64,000 nt of DNA from NCBI RefSeq assembly GCF_024171565.1, contig NZ_JALJZZ010000005.1, forward strand, positions 124,001-188,000, read 5' to 3'. The DNA is from Okibacterium sp. HSC-33S16 (GTDB lineage: Bacteria > Actinomycetota > Actinomycetes > Actinomycetales > Microbacteriaceae). This document shows positions 18,422 to 47,073 of the stretch, in pieces. A program made the translations under genes and the position numbers. Position 1 is the stretch's first letter. Each line of letters begins with the position of its first letter. Below the pieces are notes generated by a model, which made no database searches, was not told the DNA's origin, and saw only the letters and a list, made by a program, of their open reading frames with translations.

Positions 18422-18467
18422 CAGGTAGTGCCAGTGCCTCCCAGCGGCCCGGCCCTTGGCTTAGCCT
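18422..18467 (+). promoter_or_regulatory. Promoter/operator block of the XRE regulator gene
   Basis: CAGGTA-N4-CAGTGCCTCCC (18422-18442) is followed after 19 bases by the -10 box TAGCCT (18462-18467), and ATG comes six bases later. The core AGGTAG-N5-GTGCCT (18423-18439) is an imperfect dyad. The same block with the same internal spacing occurs before the aldo/keto reductase at 21311, which points to a shared regulator, most simply the XRE protein itself. Confidence 0.6.
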
Positions 18468-18473
18468 GAAGCC

Positions 18474-19355
18474 ATGGCAGACACACGCGCAGAGATTCGG
18501 GAGTTCTTGAGCTCTCGACGGGCCCGCATCGCCCCCGAAGACGCTGGCCTACCGGCCTACGGGGGTAATCGCCGCGTCCCGGGCCTTCGCCGTGAAGAAG
18601 TCGCCATGCTTACCGGAGTGTCCGTCGACTACTACGTTCGTTTGGAACGCGGCAACCTCGCTGGCGCTTCGGAAAGTGTGTTGGATTCTTTGGCGAGAAC
18701 GCTTCGTTTGGACGACGCCGAACGCGAGTACCTCTTTGACCTTGCGCGCGCCTCTGCCCCGACCCTTCACAAGAAGAAGCGCACCACGACAACGGTTCGA
18801 CCTCCGGTGCAGCAGGTACTCGATGCCCTCGACACACCGGCGTGGGTGCGCAACAGTCGCCACGACATCTTGGCCGCCAACGCCATGGGCCGGGCTCTCT
18901 ATGCCCCGGTATTCGATGACCCCCGTCGACCGGTCAACACCACGAGGTTCACGTACCTCAACCCGGCGGCACGGGAATTCTGGCGCGACTACGACCAGAT
19001 CGCGAACGATGCGGCGGCCATGCTTCGTTTGGAAGCCGGCCGGAACCCGCACGATCCGGACCTCATCACGCTGATCGGCGAATTGTCGACTCAGAGTGAG
19101 CTGTTCCGAGAGCGCTGGGCGTCGCGCGATGTCATGCATCATCGCAGCGGGTTGAAACGACTGCATCACCCCATCGTCGGCAACCTCGACTTGAACTTCG
19201 AGTCCATGGAGCTTCCGAGCGAGCCGGGGCTCGTCATGAATGTGTACACAGCACCGGCCGGATCACCGACGGCCGATGCGTTGAAAGTCCTGGCGTCATG
19301 GGTTGCCTCACAAAAGATCAGCTCGGTCGCGGAGCCTCAGCCGCGACCGAGCTGA
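18474..19355 (+). CDS. XRE family regulator with MmyB-like ligand domain
   Basis: 293-residue transcription factor. Residues about 18-80 form a Cro/C1-type helix-turn-helix (VPGLRREEVAMLTGVSVDYY, then VRLERGN), and residues about 110-285 match the MmyB-like ligand-binding domain that binds a fatty acid-like ligand in structural homologues. Such regulators usually sit beside and control one oxidoreductase gene. Here the likely targets are its own promoter and the aldo/keto reductase operon at 21311. Its last codons form one arm of a perfect terminator hairpin with the convergent cupin gene. Confidence 0.9.
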   Translation: MADTRAEIREFLSSRRARIAPEDAGLPAYGGNRRVPGLRREEVAMLTGVSVDYYVRLERGNLAGASESVLDSLARTLRLDDAEREYLFDLARASAPTLHKKKRTTTTVRPPVQQVLDALDTPAWVRNSRHDILAANAMGRALYAPVFDDPRRPVNTTRFTYLNPAAREFWRDYDQIANDAAAMLRLEAGRNPHDPDLITLIGELSTQSELFRERWASRDVMHHRSGLKRLHHPIVGNLDLNFESMELPSEPGLVMNVYTAPAGSPTADALKVLASWVASQKISSVAEPQPRPS

Positions 19356-19357
19356 TC
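19316..19357. terminator. Perfect bidirectional hairpin at the end of the XRE gene
   Basis: Left arm GATCAGCTCGGTCGCGG (19316-19332), 8-base loop, and right arm fully complementary (19341-19357). The stem has 17 perfect pairs. It includes the last coding codons and stop (19353-19355) of the XRE gene and sits 11 bases before the stop of the convergent cupin gene. There is no long T tract, as is common in high-G+C actinobacteria. Confidence 0.8.
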
Positions 19358-19368
19358 GATTCACCGTT

Positions 19369-19773
19369 CTATGCGGACGGATATTGGCCTGGGCTGAGCT
19401 TCTCGCCCCAGGTGGTTTCAGGTTCGTCACTGGCGGGTGCTTCCCACATCGCCAGGTGGCAGAGGAAGTTGTCGGCTGTCGCGCCGTGCCAGTGCCATTC
19501 TCCTGCTGGTGTATATACGGTGTCACCGGGCTGCAGGATCAGGAGTTCCTCACCCCGCGATTGCACATAGCCCACCCCTTCAGTGACGTGCAGGGTCTGG
19601 CCGACCGCATGTTTGTGCCACGCGGTGTGAGCGCCAGGAGTGAACCTCACCAGATTGAGCCGAGAGCGGGACGGTTCTTCACCGCGGTAGTACACGTTGA
19701 AGTACACGTCACCCGTGAACCACTCATCGGGACCTTTAACTGTCGGCGTTTTGGGCTGTTTCTGCGTGCTCAT
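19369..19773 (-). CDS. Cupin domain protein
   Basis: 134-residue single-domain cupin. The first metal-binding motif is visible as VRFTPGAHTAWHKHAVGQTLHVTEGVGYVQ (G-x5-HxH-x3,4-E-x6-G type), and the second as PGDTVYTPAGEWHWHGAT. This small form resembles cupins of the (R)-mandelonitrile lyase/AhpD-neighbour type often found next to carboxymuconolactone-decarboxylase-like genes, as here (3-base gap). The reaction is unknown; a metal-dependent role in the same oxidoreductase group is likely. Confidence 0.85.
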   Translation of the reverse strand: MSTQKQPKTPTVKGPDEWFTGDVYFNVYYRGEEPSRSRLNLVRFTPGAHTAWHKHAVGQTLHVTEGVGYVQSRGEELLILQPGDTVYTPAGEWHWHGATADNFLCHLAMWEAPASDEPETTWGEKLSPGQYPSA

Positions 19774-19776
19774 CCG

Positions 19777-20097
19777 TTACTCCTCATCAAAGACGCCGCG
19801 GGCGATCTGGATCGCGGACATCGCTTTCGGCCAGCCCGCATAGAACGCGAGGTGGATGATCGTTTCGATAATCTCGTCCTTGCTGAGGCCGTTTGAGCGA
19901 GCCAGGCGAAGATGGCTACCCAACTGCTCGAACGCGCCCGAGGTGATCAGGCTGGAAATGGTGACGAGGCTGCGATCGCGCTTGGGGAGGGTGTCACGGT
20001 CCCACACGTCTCCGAAGAGAACCTCATCGGTGAGTTCAGCCAGCTTCGGGGCGATATCGCCCACCAGCCGTTGGGCTGCGGATTGTTGCTCTGTCAT
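19777..20097 (-). CDS. Carboxymuconolactone decarboxylase / AhpD-like protein
   Basis: 106-residue protein of the CMD family. Typical segments are RDRSLVTISSLITSG, LGSHLRLARSNGLSKDEIIETIIHLAFYAGWPKAMSAI. The CxxC pair of AhpD alkylhydroperoxidases is absent, so it is closer to the decarboxylase-like subgroup of unknown function. The ATG at 20097 gives the normal family length; the frame continues upstream to 20217 but that part lies between the genes and inside the end of the alcohol dehydrogenase. It pairs with the cupin gene three bases downstream. Confidence 0.85.
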   Translation of the reverse strand: MTEQQSAAQRLVGDIAPKLAELTDEVLFGDVWDRDTLPKRDRSLVTISSLITSGAFEQLGSHLRLARSNGLSKDEIIETIIHLAFYAGWPKAMSAIQIARGVFDEE

Positions 20098-20128
20098 TGC
20101 GTCGTGCTCCTTTTTCTCATGGGAATAC

Positions 20129-21169
20129 TCAGAAAGCGATCTGGACCTTGAGCGCCTCTCGGGCATCCATCGCTGCATAGGCCTCGGGCACCTGATCGAT
20201 GGTGACGGTACGGTCAAAAACTCTGCCCGGGTTGATCTCGCCGTTCAGTACCTGCTGGATCGCCGACTCGAGATAGGCGCGAACGGGTGCTGGGCCTCCG
20301 GTGAGAGTCGCGTTCTTGCCAAACAACGATCCGAACCCGATGGGCGCTTCCTCATACTGCGGAACGCCGACGCGAGAAATGATCCCGCCCGGTCGCACGA
20401 TGCCGAACGACTGCTCGTACGCGGGCATCAGTCCGACCGCTTCGAGCACGACGTGGGAGCCTTCGCCCTCGGTGAGTTCCATGACCTTTGCGATCCCCTC
20501 CGCACCGCGCTCGGCCACCACATCCGTCGCTCCGAATTCACGGCCGAGGTCGGTGCGCGACCGGTGGCGACCCATGAGGATGATCTGTTCGGCACCGAGT
20601 TGTTTGGCCGCAAGCACGGCAGAGAGCCCAACGGCACCGTCACCGATCACCGTCACCGTCTTGCCTGGTTCGACACGCCCCATGTGGGCAGCGTGGTAGC
20701 CGGTGAGGTAGACGTCCGACAGACTGAGAAGCGAAGGCAACAATTCGCTGGACTCATCGATGCCAGGAACCACAACGAGGCTTCCATCCGCCTGAGGAAT
20801 CCGCGCCAGTTCGGCCTGCAATCCACCGTTTTCTGGTGTGCCGTACCAACCACCGTGTGTGCATGCTGTCTGGAACCCGTCGCGACAGAACGAGCAGGTG
20901 TTGTCCGAAAACGCGAACGGCGCGACGACAAAATCGCCCTTTCTCAGCGTCGACACGGCCGACCCGATCTCTTCGACGACGCCGATGAGCTCGTGCCCCA
21001 TCGGGTTGCCACTCTCGGAGTGGGGCATCGAATGGTACGGGTGCAGGTCGCTGCCACAGACGCATGCGCGCACGACGCGCACAATGGCATCGGTTGTTTC
21101 CTTCAGAACCGGATCGGGAACGGTCTCGACGCGGACGTCACCTGCGCCGTACATAAATGTGGCTTTCAT
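20129..21169 (-). CDS. Zinc-dependent alcohol dehydrogenase family protein
   Basis: 346-residue medium-chain dehydrogenase. Catalytic zinc ligands are in CVCGSDLHPYHSM and the GHELIGVVEEIG motif; the structural zinc cysteines are in NTCSFCRDGFQTACTHGG; the nucleotide fold is VIGDGAVGLSAVLAAKQLGAEQIILMGRH, in which the basic residues suggest NADP. The ATG at 21169 starts the conserved MKATFMYGAGDVRVE terminus; an open frame to 21574 is antisense to the aldo/keto reductase. It is the first gene of the minus-strand set with the AhpD-like and cupin genes. The substrate alcohol is unknown. Confidence 0.9.
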   Translation of the reverse strand: MKATFMYGAGDVRVETVPDPVLKETTDAIVRVVRACVCGSDLHPYHSMPHSESGNPMGHELIGVVEEIGSAVSTLRKGDFVVAPFAFSDNTCSFCRDGFQTACTHGGWYGTPENGGLQAELARIPQADGSLVVVPGIDESSELLPSLLSLSDVYLTGYHAAHMGRVEPGKTVTVIGDGAVGLSAVLAAKQLGAEQIILMGRHRSRTDLGREFGATDVVAERGAEGIAKVMELTEGEGSHVVLEAVGLMPAYEQSFGIVRPGGIISRVGVPQYEEAPIGFGSLFGKNATLTGGPAPVRAYLESAIQQVLNGEINPGRVFDRTVTIDQVPEAYAAMDAREALKVQIAF

Positions 21170-21257
21170 GGAATCCTTTGGGTGAGAGAGAACGGCCGAG
21201 GGATCGGCCTCAACCATCACACCCTTCTTATCCTCGGTGCGGGAGGAACGGTTGTGA

Positions 21258-21303
21258 CAGGTACCAGCAGTGCCTCCCGGCGCGAGCGGAGCGGGCGTAG
21301 CGT
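21258..21303 (+). promoter_or_regulatory. Promoter/operator block of the aldo/keto reductase operon
   Basis: CAGGTA-N4-CAGTGCCTCCC (21258-21278) and, 19 bases on, the -10 box TAGCGT (21298-21303), with ATG seven bases later. The dyad core AGGTAC-N5-GTGCCT is at 21259-21275. It aligns without gaps with the block before the XRE regulator gene. Confidence 0.6.
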
Positions 21304-21310
21304 GCCTGAC

Positions 21311-22195
21311 ATGAACATTCCCTCGATCACGTTGAACAACGGCGTCGATATGCCCGCTCTGGGCTTCGGCGTCTTCCAATCCGCTCCGGAAGAGACGACG
21401 GATGCCGTCAGCGAAGCACTGAAGGTCGGCTATCGGCACATCGATACCGCGGCTGCCTACGGCAACGAGCGCGAGGTCGGCGAAGCGATCCGGCAGTCCG
21501 GCATCCCCCGCGACGAGATCTTCGTCGAAACCAAGGTGTGGATCAGCGACTATGGCTACGACGAAACGCTGCACGCATTCGAGAAGTCAGCGGGCAAGCT
21601 CGGGGTCGACCAGATCGACCTGTTCATCCTGCACCAGGCGTTGCCCTCCGAGTTCAGCAAAACGCTCGATGCCTATCGCGCACTCGAGACGCTGTACACC
21701 GACGGCAAGGTGCGCGCCATTGGCGTCAGCAACTTCATGCCGGAGCATCTCACCGAACTGCTGTCGGTCGCGACGATCGTGCCAGCGGTGAACCAGATCG
21801 AGATGCACCCGTATTTCCAGCAGAAAGAGCTGGTCGCTCTCGATGCGCAACACGGCATCGTCACCCAGGCCTGGTCACCCATCGGTGGCATCACGTTCTA
21901 CCGGGAGGGCGAAGGCGGCAGCACCCTGGATGACCCCACTATCACCGCGATCGCCGAGGCGCACGGCAAGTCTCCGGCGCAGGTCATGTTGCGCTGGCAC
22001 ATTCAGGAAGGCCGCAGCGCCATCCCGAAGTCAGTGAAGCCGCACCGTATTGCGGAGAACTTCGACGTTGCCAGTTTCGAGCTGAGCGACGCCGAGCTCG
22101 GGAGCATCGACGCACTCGACACCGGCGTTCGACGCGGACCGGAGCCCGAGGTCATCACCCTGGAGACCTTCGGGCGCGCTATCCCCGAAGCCTGA
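21311..22195 (+). CDS. Aldo/keto reductase, AKR5-like
   Basis: 294-residue NADPH-dependent carbonyl reductase with the (alpha/beta)8 barrel signatures. The catalytic tetrad is visible: Asp and Tyr in GYRHIDTAAAYGNE, Lys in ETKVWI, and His in LFILHQALP. The C-terminal block MLRWHIQEGRSAIPKSVKPHRIAENF binds NADPH. It is close to 2,5-diketo-D-gluconate reductase-like enzymes. The ATG at 21311 fits both the family and the promoter block; the long frame from 19856 is antisense to other genes. It is the first gene of a plus-strand group with a second aldo/keto reductase 43 bases on. Confidence 0.92.
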   Translation: MNIPSITLNNGVDMPALGFGVFQSAPEETTDAVSEALKVGYRHIDTAAAYGNEREVGEAIRQSGIPRDEIFVETKVWISDYGYDETLHAFEKSAGKLGVDQIDLFILHQALPSEFSKTLDAYRALETLYTDGKVRAIGVSNFMPEHLTELLSVATIVPAVNQIEMHPYFQQKELVALDAQHGIVTQAWSPIGGITFYREGEGGSTLDDPTITAIAEAHGKSPAQVMLRWHIQEGRSAIPKSVKPHRIAENFDVASFELSDAELGSIDALDTGVRRGPEPEVITLETFGRAIPEA

Positions 22196-22238: not shown

Positions 22239-23255
22239 ATGGAATACCGACCCCTCGGACGCACCGGCGTCTCGGTCAGCTCCCTCTGCCTTGGCACCAT
22301 GATGTTCGGGCCGTGGGGCAATGAGGACAGGCAGGACTCGATTCGCATCATCCACGCTGCGCTCGACGCCGGCATCACCTTCGTTGACACCGCCGACGTC
22401 TACTCCGGCGGTGAGTCAGAGCGGATTGTGGGCGAAGCGTTGAAGGGTCGACGTGACGACGTGGTGCTCGCAACCAAGTTCTTCATGCCGATGAGCGACA
22501 ACCCCAACCACAGAGGCGGCAGCCGAAAGTGGATCATGCGAGCGGTCGAAGATTCCCTCCAGCGGCTCCAAACCGACTACATCGACCTCTACCAGGTGCA
22601 CCGCCCCTCGGCGGATACCGATGTGGAGGAGACCCTGGGAGCGCTCAGCGATCTCGTCGCGCAGGGCAAGGTTCGTTCGATCGGCTCGTCGTCGTATTCG
22701 GCCAGCCAGATCGTCGAAGCACAGTGGGCAGCGCGGGAGCGCCACCTCCAGCGGTTCGTCACGGAGCAGCCACCGTACTCGCTCCTCGTTCGTGGGATCG
22801 AGGAGGATGTGTTGCCGACCGCACGGCGGCACGGCATGGGTATCCTCACCTACAGCCCACTCGCCGGCGGCTGGCTGTCAGGACGCTGGCGCAAGGACGC
22901 CGCCGGATCCCCCACCTCGTCGGCACGACCACCGGCGCGATTCGACATGTCGAGTCCCGCAAACCAACGCAAACTCGATGCCGTTGAAGAACTCGCGCTC
23001 CTCGCCGAGGATGCAGGAATTTCATTGATCGAGCTTGCTCTGGCCTTCGTGATTCGCCACCCGGCGGTCACATCGGCAATCATCGGGCCGCGGACGATGG
23101 AACAGCTGGAGTCACAACTGTCCGCAGCAGACACAGTGCTGTCCGACGAGCTGCTCGACCGCATCGACGAGATCGTCGCGCCAGGAACAACAATCAACCC
23201 GGACGACAACAGCTACGGCGCCACCGAACTCGCTCCACGCGCACGACGACGCTGA
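22239..23255 (+). CDS. Aldo/keto reductase, YghZ/potassium-channel-beta-like group
   Basis: 338-residue aldo/keto reductase of a different subfamily from its neighbour. N-terminal MEYRPLGRTGVSVSSLCLGTMMFG; the tetrad is visible in FVDTADVYSGGESE, the Lys in VLATKF and the His in YQVHRPS; the C terminus has HPAVTSAIIGPRTMEQL for NADPH. I start it at ATG 22239; a TTG at 22203 would add twelve unconserved residues. Substrates of this group are small aldehydes and ketones. The pair of reductases beside a zinc alcohol dehydrogenase suggests a general carbonyl/electrophile response. Confidence 0.9.
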   Translation: MEYRPLGRTGVSVSSLCLGTMMFGPWGNEDRQDSIRIIHAALDAGITFVDTADVYSGGESERIVGEALKGRRDDVVLATKFFMPMSDNPNHRGGSRKWIMRAVEDSLQRLQTDYIDLYQVHRPSADTDVEETLGALSDLVAQGKVRSIGSSSYSASQIVEAQWAARERHLQRFVTEQPPYSLLVRGIEEDVLPTARRHGMGILTYSPLAGGWLSGRWRKDAAGSPTSSARPPARFDMSSPANQRKLDAVEELALLAEDAGISLIELALAFVIRHPAVTSAIIGPRTMEQLESQLSAADTVLSDELLDRIDEIVAPGTTINPDDNSYGATELAPRARRR

Positions 23256-25228: not shown

Positions 25229-25693
25229 CTACCGCACGGGGATGCGCTCGTCGCGGTCATCCAGCACGAATGCCTCGCTCACGACCGCCAGGTACAGCCG
25301 GTGTCTTGCTGGATCCCTCAGTTTCGCCGGATCCCAGGCCTCGAGCCCTCGATCGAGCAATCGCTCGTTGTAGATCGCGAGCGCTTCGACGAATGTTGAC
25401 TCATCGGCGAGCGCTGCGACAGCAGACAGGTAGAGGGCGCTGCCGGCGCCGGGCGCCGCACTGGAGTTGAAGATCACCGCCGACACCTGGGGATTCTCTG
25501 CGATATGACGGGAATGCCGCGCACCCGGTTTCGATGCCCACACAAACAGGTCAAGCCCACGTGCCGCGAACCACACCGGCGAGGCCCACGGGTGCCCGCT
25601 CGCGTCGGCCGTGGCGAGGGTGAGGAATGAGTTCTCCGCGATGAGCGCCCGAGCGAGCCGCGCCGGGTCAGAGTGAGCATCATCGGCGGTCAT
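25229..25693 (-). CDS. Pyridoxamine 5'-phosphate oxidase family protein
   Basis: About 154-residue split-barrel flavin-binding protein: ARALIAENSFLTLATADASGHPWASPVWFAARGLDLFVWASKPGARHSRHIAENPQVSAVIF is the FMN/F420-binding half. Members include PNPOx-like and F420-dependent reductases; the specific cofactor and substrate cannot be called. An ATG at 25693 and a GTG at 25699 are both possible starts. It converges on the PrmC-related gene with a 68-base gap. Confidence 0.82.
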   Translation of the reverse strand: MTADDAHSDPARLARALIAENSFLTLATADASGHPWASPVWFAARGLDLFVWASKPGARHSRHIAENPQVSAVIFNSSAAPGAGSALYLSAVAALADESTFVEALAIYNERLLDRGLEAWDPAKLRDPARHRLYLAVVSEAFVLDDRDERIPVR

Positions 25694-46653: not shown

Positions 46654-47073
46654 CTACGCGAAATGATTGACGAGTAGGTCGGTGACACTGTGCCAGTGAC
46701 CGAGCATCATCCGGCGTTCGTCGCGGTCGGCGAGTTCCTCGTGGCGGAACTCAACTGTCGCGCCTGCTCCCCGCGGAGCGTTGGCCACGGTGACCTGAAG
46801 CGTGGTGTCGTGGGGCCAATCTTCAGGTTACCAGGATAACCGAACCTGCTTGCCGGCCACGAAGGCACGAACCGTGCCTCGTACCCCATCACGCGTCTGG
46901 TATCGGACACCTTTTTTGGATGGGAGCGACTCGATGTCGCCGAGCCACGCCGGCAGACCCTCACCGACGAGGTACTTCCACACGGTCTCGGGTGAGGCGT
47001 CGATGGTCTTGCGTACGCCCACGTCCCAGCCGTTGTCGTTCTTCTGGCCGGGGGTGCTGCGCGATTCACTCAT
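46654..47073 (-). pseudogene. SRPBCC/AHSA1-like protein interrupted by one in-frame TAA
   Basis: The first 81 codons from ATG 47073 encode a START-fold protein (KTIDASPETVWKYLVGEGLPAWLGDIESL). The frame then has TAA at 46830-46828 after ...KQVRLSW and continues in the same frame without another stop for 57 codons: PEDWPHDTTLQVTVANAP and later EFRHEELADRDERRMMLGHW, ending at TAG 46656-46654. The continuation is exactly the expected C terminus of the family, so one base change (for example AAA to TAA) broke the gene. Either a recent nonsense mutation or a sequencing error. No selenocysteine-like or readthrough context is seen. Confidence 0.8.

Follow-up and report, generated by a model that had tools for sequence, protein, structure and literature searches.

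A promoter-operator block shared by an MmyB-like regulator gene and an aldo/keto reductase gene in Okibacterium sp. HSC-33S16, and its recurrence before regulator homologs

At PRM, lambda CI exerts positive control of its own gene from a dyad centred at about -42, over the -35 region, and it works with cooperating operators and a RecA-cleaved domain. The C proteins of restriction-modification systems use a dyad before their own gene and have leaderless transcripts, and YqhC of Escherichia coli is an AraC-type regulator. MmyB-like regulators have been linked to antibiotic production, and the accessible part of PMC3406030 gives pseudo-palindromic B-boxes as the presumed binding sites of MmyB. 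Here, we analysed a stretch of 64,000 nucleotides from Okibacterium sp. HSC-33S16 (contig NZ_JALJZZ010000005.1, positions 124,001–188,000; genome of 3,231,809 bases), denoted the window. It contains a gene for an MmyB-like (MltR-type) transcription regulator of 293 amino acids (18474..19355, plus strand; domains HTH_31 and MLTR_LBD, solved relative 3pxp) and a gene for an aldo/keto reductase, AKR1 (21311..22195, plus strand), both preceded by the same block of operator, spacer and -10 element. With a probability of roughly two in three, the regulator would act at these blocks as a class II activator. We read the operator, its geometry, its specificity and its conservation from sequence comparison, and infer binding, activation, control of a divergent alcohol dehydrogenase gene and the kind of ligand.

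Both blocks read CAGGTA-N4-CAGTGCCTCCC, then 19 bases, then the -10 element; in another notation, AGGTA-N7-TGCCTCCC, 19 bases, TAGC[CG]T, ATG. The ungapped alignment of the two blocks proposed in a sequence-only reading of the window was confirmed together with its coordinates. Before the regulator gene, the -10 element TAGCCT (18462..18467, plus strand) of a predicted leaderless promoter stands 19 bases past CCTCCC, and the ATG at 18474 follows 6 bases later; before AKR1, the element is TAGCGT (21298..21303, plus strand), with the ATG 7 bases on, at 21311. The sequence-only reading had also described a dyad-like core, AGGTAS-N5-GTGCCT. A dyad is indeed present, but this core is too short, and a 17-bp imperfect dyad, made of 8-bp arms flanking a single base, describes the operator better, with AGGTAGTG or AGGTACCA as the left arm and CAGTGCCT as the right arm. 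Operator 1, AGGTAGTG-C-CAGTGCCT (18423..18439, plus strand), has 6 of 8 possible pairs and is followed by a conserved CCC (18440–18442); operator 2, AGGTACCA-G-CAGTGCCT (21259..21275, plus strand), has 5 of 8 pairs and is followed by CCC at 21276–21278. Their centres (18431 and 21267) lie 31 bases upstream of the -10 element and 43 and 44 bases, respectively, upstream of the start codon. A simple scan found no sigma-70-type promoter with a -35 element at either block.

A genome scan for AGGTAS-N5-GTGCCT, suggested earlier as a check, returned exactly two occurrences in the own genome, the two blocks, and 0 in the backwards control. A 45-base pattern with 16 fixed bases and up to 3 mismatches allowed matched nine times in the same genome, twice with 0 mismatches and seven times with 3; the control gave 12, and the seven 3-mismatch matches are not above it. 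We then searched a strict pattern, composed of the operator, a spacer of 19 bases, the -10 element and ATG, in 299 family and 394 class genomes, together 679 distinct ones. It matched 17 times in 16 genomes (control, 0): 15 matches precede a regulator homolog and two precede AKR1, namely the window's own and that of locus L065. With 17 of 17 strict matches before the regulator or AKR1, the motif is not one that is common before unrelated genes. The strict pattern misses most true sites, as only 16 of the 679 genomes were matched, and prevalence was judged from looser scans of regulator loci.

In the genome of L065 (G132), AKR1 with its block lies at C1:1160802, and a regulator, 80% identical, is encoded 0.68 Mb away at C1:1842012. 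The latter is the sole regulator match at E ≤ 1e-40 in this genome and has its own block (AGGTACCCGCAGGCCCTCCC, 19 bases, TACCCT, 6 bases, ATG). Because the block precedes both AKR1 and the distant regulator gene, the link between the two holds in trans. One of the 15 matches before regulator homologs, L063 in genome G182, is a perfect block before a degenerate open reading frame of 87 amino acids that adjoins a cupin gene; a regulator match at E ≤ 1e-40 was not found in G182.

On its own, the short core is no rarity in the window: with 2 mismatches or fewer it matched 11 times, whereas 4.48 matches were expected, and 11 was reached in 2 of 100 shuffles. Two of these matches, at 25290 and 46863, were considered as sites, but both lie inside coding sequence without a promoter block and were taken as chance. 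The second of them (46863–46879), AGGCAC-N5-GTGCCT, is a perfect dyad with the arm spacing of the operator.

A comparison of promoters before MmyB-like genes in related genomes, also proposed at the outset, found the block widely kept. We scored it at up to 3 of 11 fixed positions mismatched, a -10 element at 17–21 bases and an in-frame start codon 4–9 bases further on. Among 46 named loci found via protein similarity, 37 carry the block in frame before the regulator gene, with a spacer of 19 bases in 27 of them, 20 in nine and 17 in one. The titles of the block-bearing records include Mycetocola, Herbiconiux, Cryobacterium, Agreia, Agromyces, Arthrobacter, Promicromonospora, Nonomuraea and Umezawaea. 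Over the 639,596 bases of these loci and the window, the scan gave 52 matches vs 3 in reversed sequence and 4, 5 and 1 in block-shuffled sequence. An operator-blind set was composed of the best locus from each of the 30 family genomes, out of 120 and including the own genome, that have a homolog at E ≤ 1e-90; 28 of the 30 show a leaderless-type -10 element and 24 have the operator in place. Within the genus, two genomes (G002, G086) gave neither a regulator (E ≤ 1e-90) nor an AKR1 match (E ≤ 1e-105), and five genomes gave zero matches to the strict pattern. The strict matches and the 37 of 46 loci support the autoregulated mini-regulon that had been suggested from the window, but the suggestion was too narrow: the leftward genes for a zinc-type alcohol dehydrogenase (ADH), a carboxymuconolactone decarboxylase-family protein (CMD) and a cupin share operator 2 and have a promoter of like geometry of their own.

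This third promoter is predicted before the ADH gene (20129..21169, minus strand; first gene of the leftward operon). Its half-site CCGTTCCTCCC (21241..21251, minus strand) has the geometry of the other two promoters and lacks a clear left arm; a -10-like TGTGAT (21216..21221, minus strand) stands 19 bases past it, with a start predicted near 21209. The combined pattern of half-site and -10 (CNGNNNCTCCC, 19 bases, [TG][AG]NNNT) has exactly three matches in the window, which are the two promoters described above and that of the ADH gene. Upstream of ADH genes, the half-site pattern was found in seven of 26 regions, window included, vs 0.02 predicted from its rate in reversed sequence (7 per 1,279,192 strand-bases); the other 19 regions are without it. 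The ADH-CMD-cupin operon is thus probably under the same control, to judge from these patterns, which would make the regulon wider. Same-geometry promoters stand before a divergent ADH gene in the window and at L010, L011, L021, L034 and L075. At L010, L011 and L021, the ADH ATG follows the -10 by 7 bases, so these transcripts are apparently leaderless, whereas in the window the leader would be about 40 bases long. At L014, L018 and L026, it is a cupin gene that has the block upstream.

In the mechanism we propose, a dimer of the regulator would bind the 17-bp dyad, which is centred 43 bases before the predicted leaderless start of its own gene and 44 bases before that of AKR1. The dyad would take the place of a -35 element, and the bound helix-turn-helix (HTH) domain would contact sigma region 4, like lambda CI at PRM; residue E41 of the regulator would align with E34, the positive-control residue of CI. 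In this way the regulator would raise transcription of its own gene and of AKR1 together with a second aldo/keto reductase gene, AKR2 (22239..23255, plus strand), and probably also of the divergent ADH-CMD-cupin operon. Activation would occur when the PAS-like domain holds the right ligand; judging by the enzyme set, this may be a reactive carbonyl compound or else a precursor. Class II activation is favoured because the dyad centre at -43/-44 falls over the -35 region, the simple scan recognised no -35 element, and the spacing is kept in unrelated promoters, the geometry being common to the genes for the regulator, AKR1, cupin and ADH. The combination of a predicted leaderless start with the -43 position of the dyad, neither of which the sequence-only reading had pointed out, likewise favours activation. 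For MltR, the accessible part of PMC3406030 proposes that the recognition helices of the dimer lie about 34 Å from each other and span about 10 bp, and such a spacing fits arms 10–11 bp apart.

Alternatively, the regulator could be an autorepressor that occupies the -35 region, obstructing RNA polymerase at its own promoter and at that of the reductase until a ligand releases it, which we regard as unlikely, if by no means negligible. The operator does cover the -35 region, binding to their own promoters is described for most XRE regulators named in the available text of PMC12565409, and Corynebacterium glutamicum has an XRE regulator, MsrR, that represses itself according to the accessible part of PMC7532634. 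However, a roadblock needs no fixed spacing, and here the distance to the -10 element is base-exact in unrelated promoters; the sites have no recognisable -35 element, and MmyB, the namesake of the family, is described as a positive regulator in the part of PMC10717218 that was available.

Several observations weigh against activation by this regulator as proposed. A site at -35 would suit a repressor just as well, actinobacterial promoters often have weak -35 elements, and the same sites could be bound by other MLTR_LBD paralogs. Nine of the 46 named loci are without the block as scored (L012, L032, L033, L036 with a partial gene, L040, L041, L046, L047 and L048; at L032 the operator is there, with a start located that is not in frame), as are six of the 30 operator-blind homologs. 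Homologs of AKR1 number 28, in 26 of 120 genomes, and the script detected operator and -10 in only 11 of them; several others have diverged-looking sites by eye. All 11 block-bearing genes are among the 25 AKR1 genes of 23 genomes with a regulator homolog (E ≤ 1e-50), and none of the three AKR1 genes in genomes without one has the block, a contrast that is too small to count alone, with 14 of the 25 also without a block by script. Finally, covariation between the recognition helix and the half-site bases did not exceed the null, either raw (best 0.535 vs a permuted maximum of 0.608) or corrected (0.210 vs 0.256).

That the covariation did not rise above its null also leaves room for the idea that the site belongs to another regulator, e.g., one of the three other MLTR_LBD paralogs, and that the regulator described here is merely a target. 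The genome encodes four MLTR_LBD proteins, and paralogs have similar dyads in the same place. This explanation is improbable, as 17 of 17 strict sites precede the present regulator subfamily or AKR1 and the dyads upstream of the genome's own paralogs differ in sequence. That the blocks resemble each other by chance, or arose by a recent local duplication and have no function, as might be suggested by their lying within 3 kb and in G+C-rich DNA, is already refuted by the comparative controls and has next to no probability, since other genera have the block upstream of both genes, with differing bases between the fixed positions, and controls are near zero.

Beyond this locus, class II activation by the regulator may be one instance of a more general plan. 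MLTR_LBD genes were searched in 60 class genomes, of which 33 hold one, with up to 18 matches in a single genome. We examined 146 promoters (100 read from the given loci and 60 regions among the matches listed, 45 named ones, and that of the window); as two loci are repeated (L069 = L010, L086 = L072), L069 and L086 were left out where 144 are counted. Start codons were chosen by script from the -10 element, not from annotation, and the dyad was not used for this choice. Anchored on the -10 element, dyad pairing in the 146 promoters peaks 31 bases upstream, with 3.97 of 8 pairs; the two neighbouring offsets give 2.41 and 2.19, and no other offset between -45 and -16 exceeds 2.86. With the start codon as anchor, pairing in 82 distant paralogs reaches 2.98 at -43 and 2.93 at -44 (maximum of 200 shuffles, 2.84), and 53 other leaderless-type open reading frames give 2.36 pairs at the same offset. 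At least 5 pairs are formed in 60 of 144 regulator promoters and in 30 of 85 distant ones, vs 3 of the 53 other frames. Across these aligned promoters, the dyad position is a strong tendency of MLTR_LBD regulators, not a universal one. The weighted half-site, read from the outside inwards, is GGKACTG; it was derived from 78 promoters, those forming 5 or more of the 8 pairs, after the rest had been dropped, and its symmetry is partly due to this selection. Judged from such promoters, a family code of operators possibly extends across paralog groups. Different strong dyads were seen in the same place in other paralog groups (L122, L123, L129, L154, L103), e.g., CCAGGGAGGAGCTCTCCCTGG at L123.

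We advance only tentatively, at somewhat less than even odds, that actinobacterial MmyB-like regulators follow one plan: a dyad of the GGKACTG-N-CAGTMCC type, centred 43 bases before the regulator's own leaderless start, would serve for class II activation in the manner of CI. The operator, and then the targets, would be readable from the regulator's own promoter, which here would lead to a five-enzyme carbonyl-redox regulon. If true, such a fixed plan would make the targets, and then the ligands, of these little-studied regulators directly testable. In the literature searched, which covered few subscription papers and did not include the paper naming the MmyB B-boxes, we found no operator sequence or fixed dyad position for an MmyB-like regulator, and part of this may be in print. 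The regulon itself is of an ordinary kind; it exposes a useful family-wide rule.

Operator 2 sits between two divergent operons with five enzymes in all. AKR1 and AKR2 probably form one operon, as their gap of 43 bases suggests. On the opposite strand, ADH, CMD (19777..20097, minus strand) and cupin (19369..19773, minus strand) are separated by operon-like gaps of 31 and 3 bases and end in a terminator-like hairpin of 17 pairs followed by TTTT (19316..19357, minus strand), a pattern match only, which lies 3′ of the cupin gene and extends into the convergent regulator gene at its 3′ end. The cupin scores above the cut-off of the NCBIfam (R)-mandelonitrile lyase model (154.5 vs 140 bits) and, if it is a real hydroxynitrile lyase, would be useful in biocatalysis. 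The remaining enzymes all score under the cut-offs of their matched NCBIfam models; for AKR1, the nearest is DkgA (275.8 vs 425 bits), while among solved structures a chain of a prostaglandin F synthase matches it best.

On the grounds of its domains, the regulator is a member of the MmyB-like family. Its MLTR_LBD domain (PF17765) was matched at E 5.3e-52 (176.7 bits vs a cut-off of 26.3) and its N-terminal XRE-type HTH as HTH_31 (39 bits vs 27). Among solved chains, 3pxp is the top profile match (E 2.8e-12, columns 54–274 only) and also the top Foldseek match of the regulator model (E 2.2e-06), with a TM-score of 0.23 overall and a model of modest quality (predicted TM-score, pTM, 0.48). Thiol sensing was rejected for the regulator of the window, which is without any cysteine.

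MltR (Caur_2278, PDB 3pxp) and MmyB resemble the window regulator in combining an XRE-type HTH with MLTR_LBD, whereas MmyB serves an antibiotic cluster and the neighbours here are reductases. The position of lambda CI at PRM, about -42, compares with -43/-44 for the window operators, at a fixed distance of 31 bases to the -10 element; unlike CI, the window regulator has one dyad and a PAS-like ligand domain, and activation is predicted. The C proteins C.BclI and C.Esp1396I appeared as XRE-fold matches in Foldseek (E 0.07–0.7), but C proteins are small, have no ligand domain and control endonuclease genes. In E. coli, YqhC responds to aldehydes by raising the expression of an alcohol/aldehyde oxidoreductase and a DkgA-type reductase, yqhD-dkgA, as set out in the accessible part of PMC6115493. 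The HTH_31 and MLTR_LBD architecture of the window regulator is not AraC-type, and the alcohol dehydrogenases of the two systems differ in type. YqhC with yqhD-dkgA is, by this analogy, a parallel in function only, in which the enzymes suggest carbonyl chemistry.

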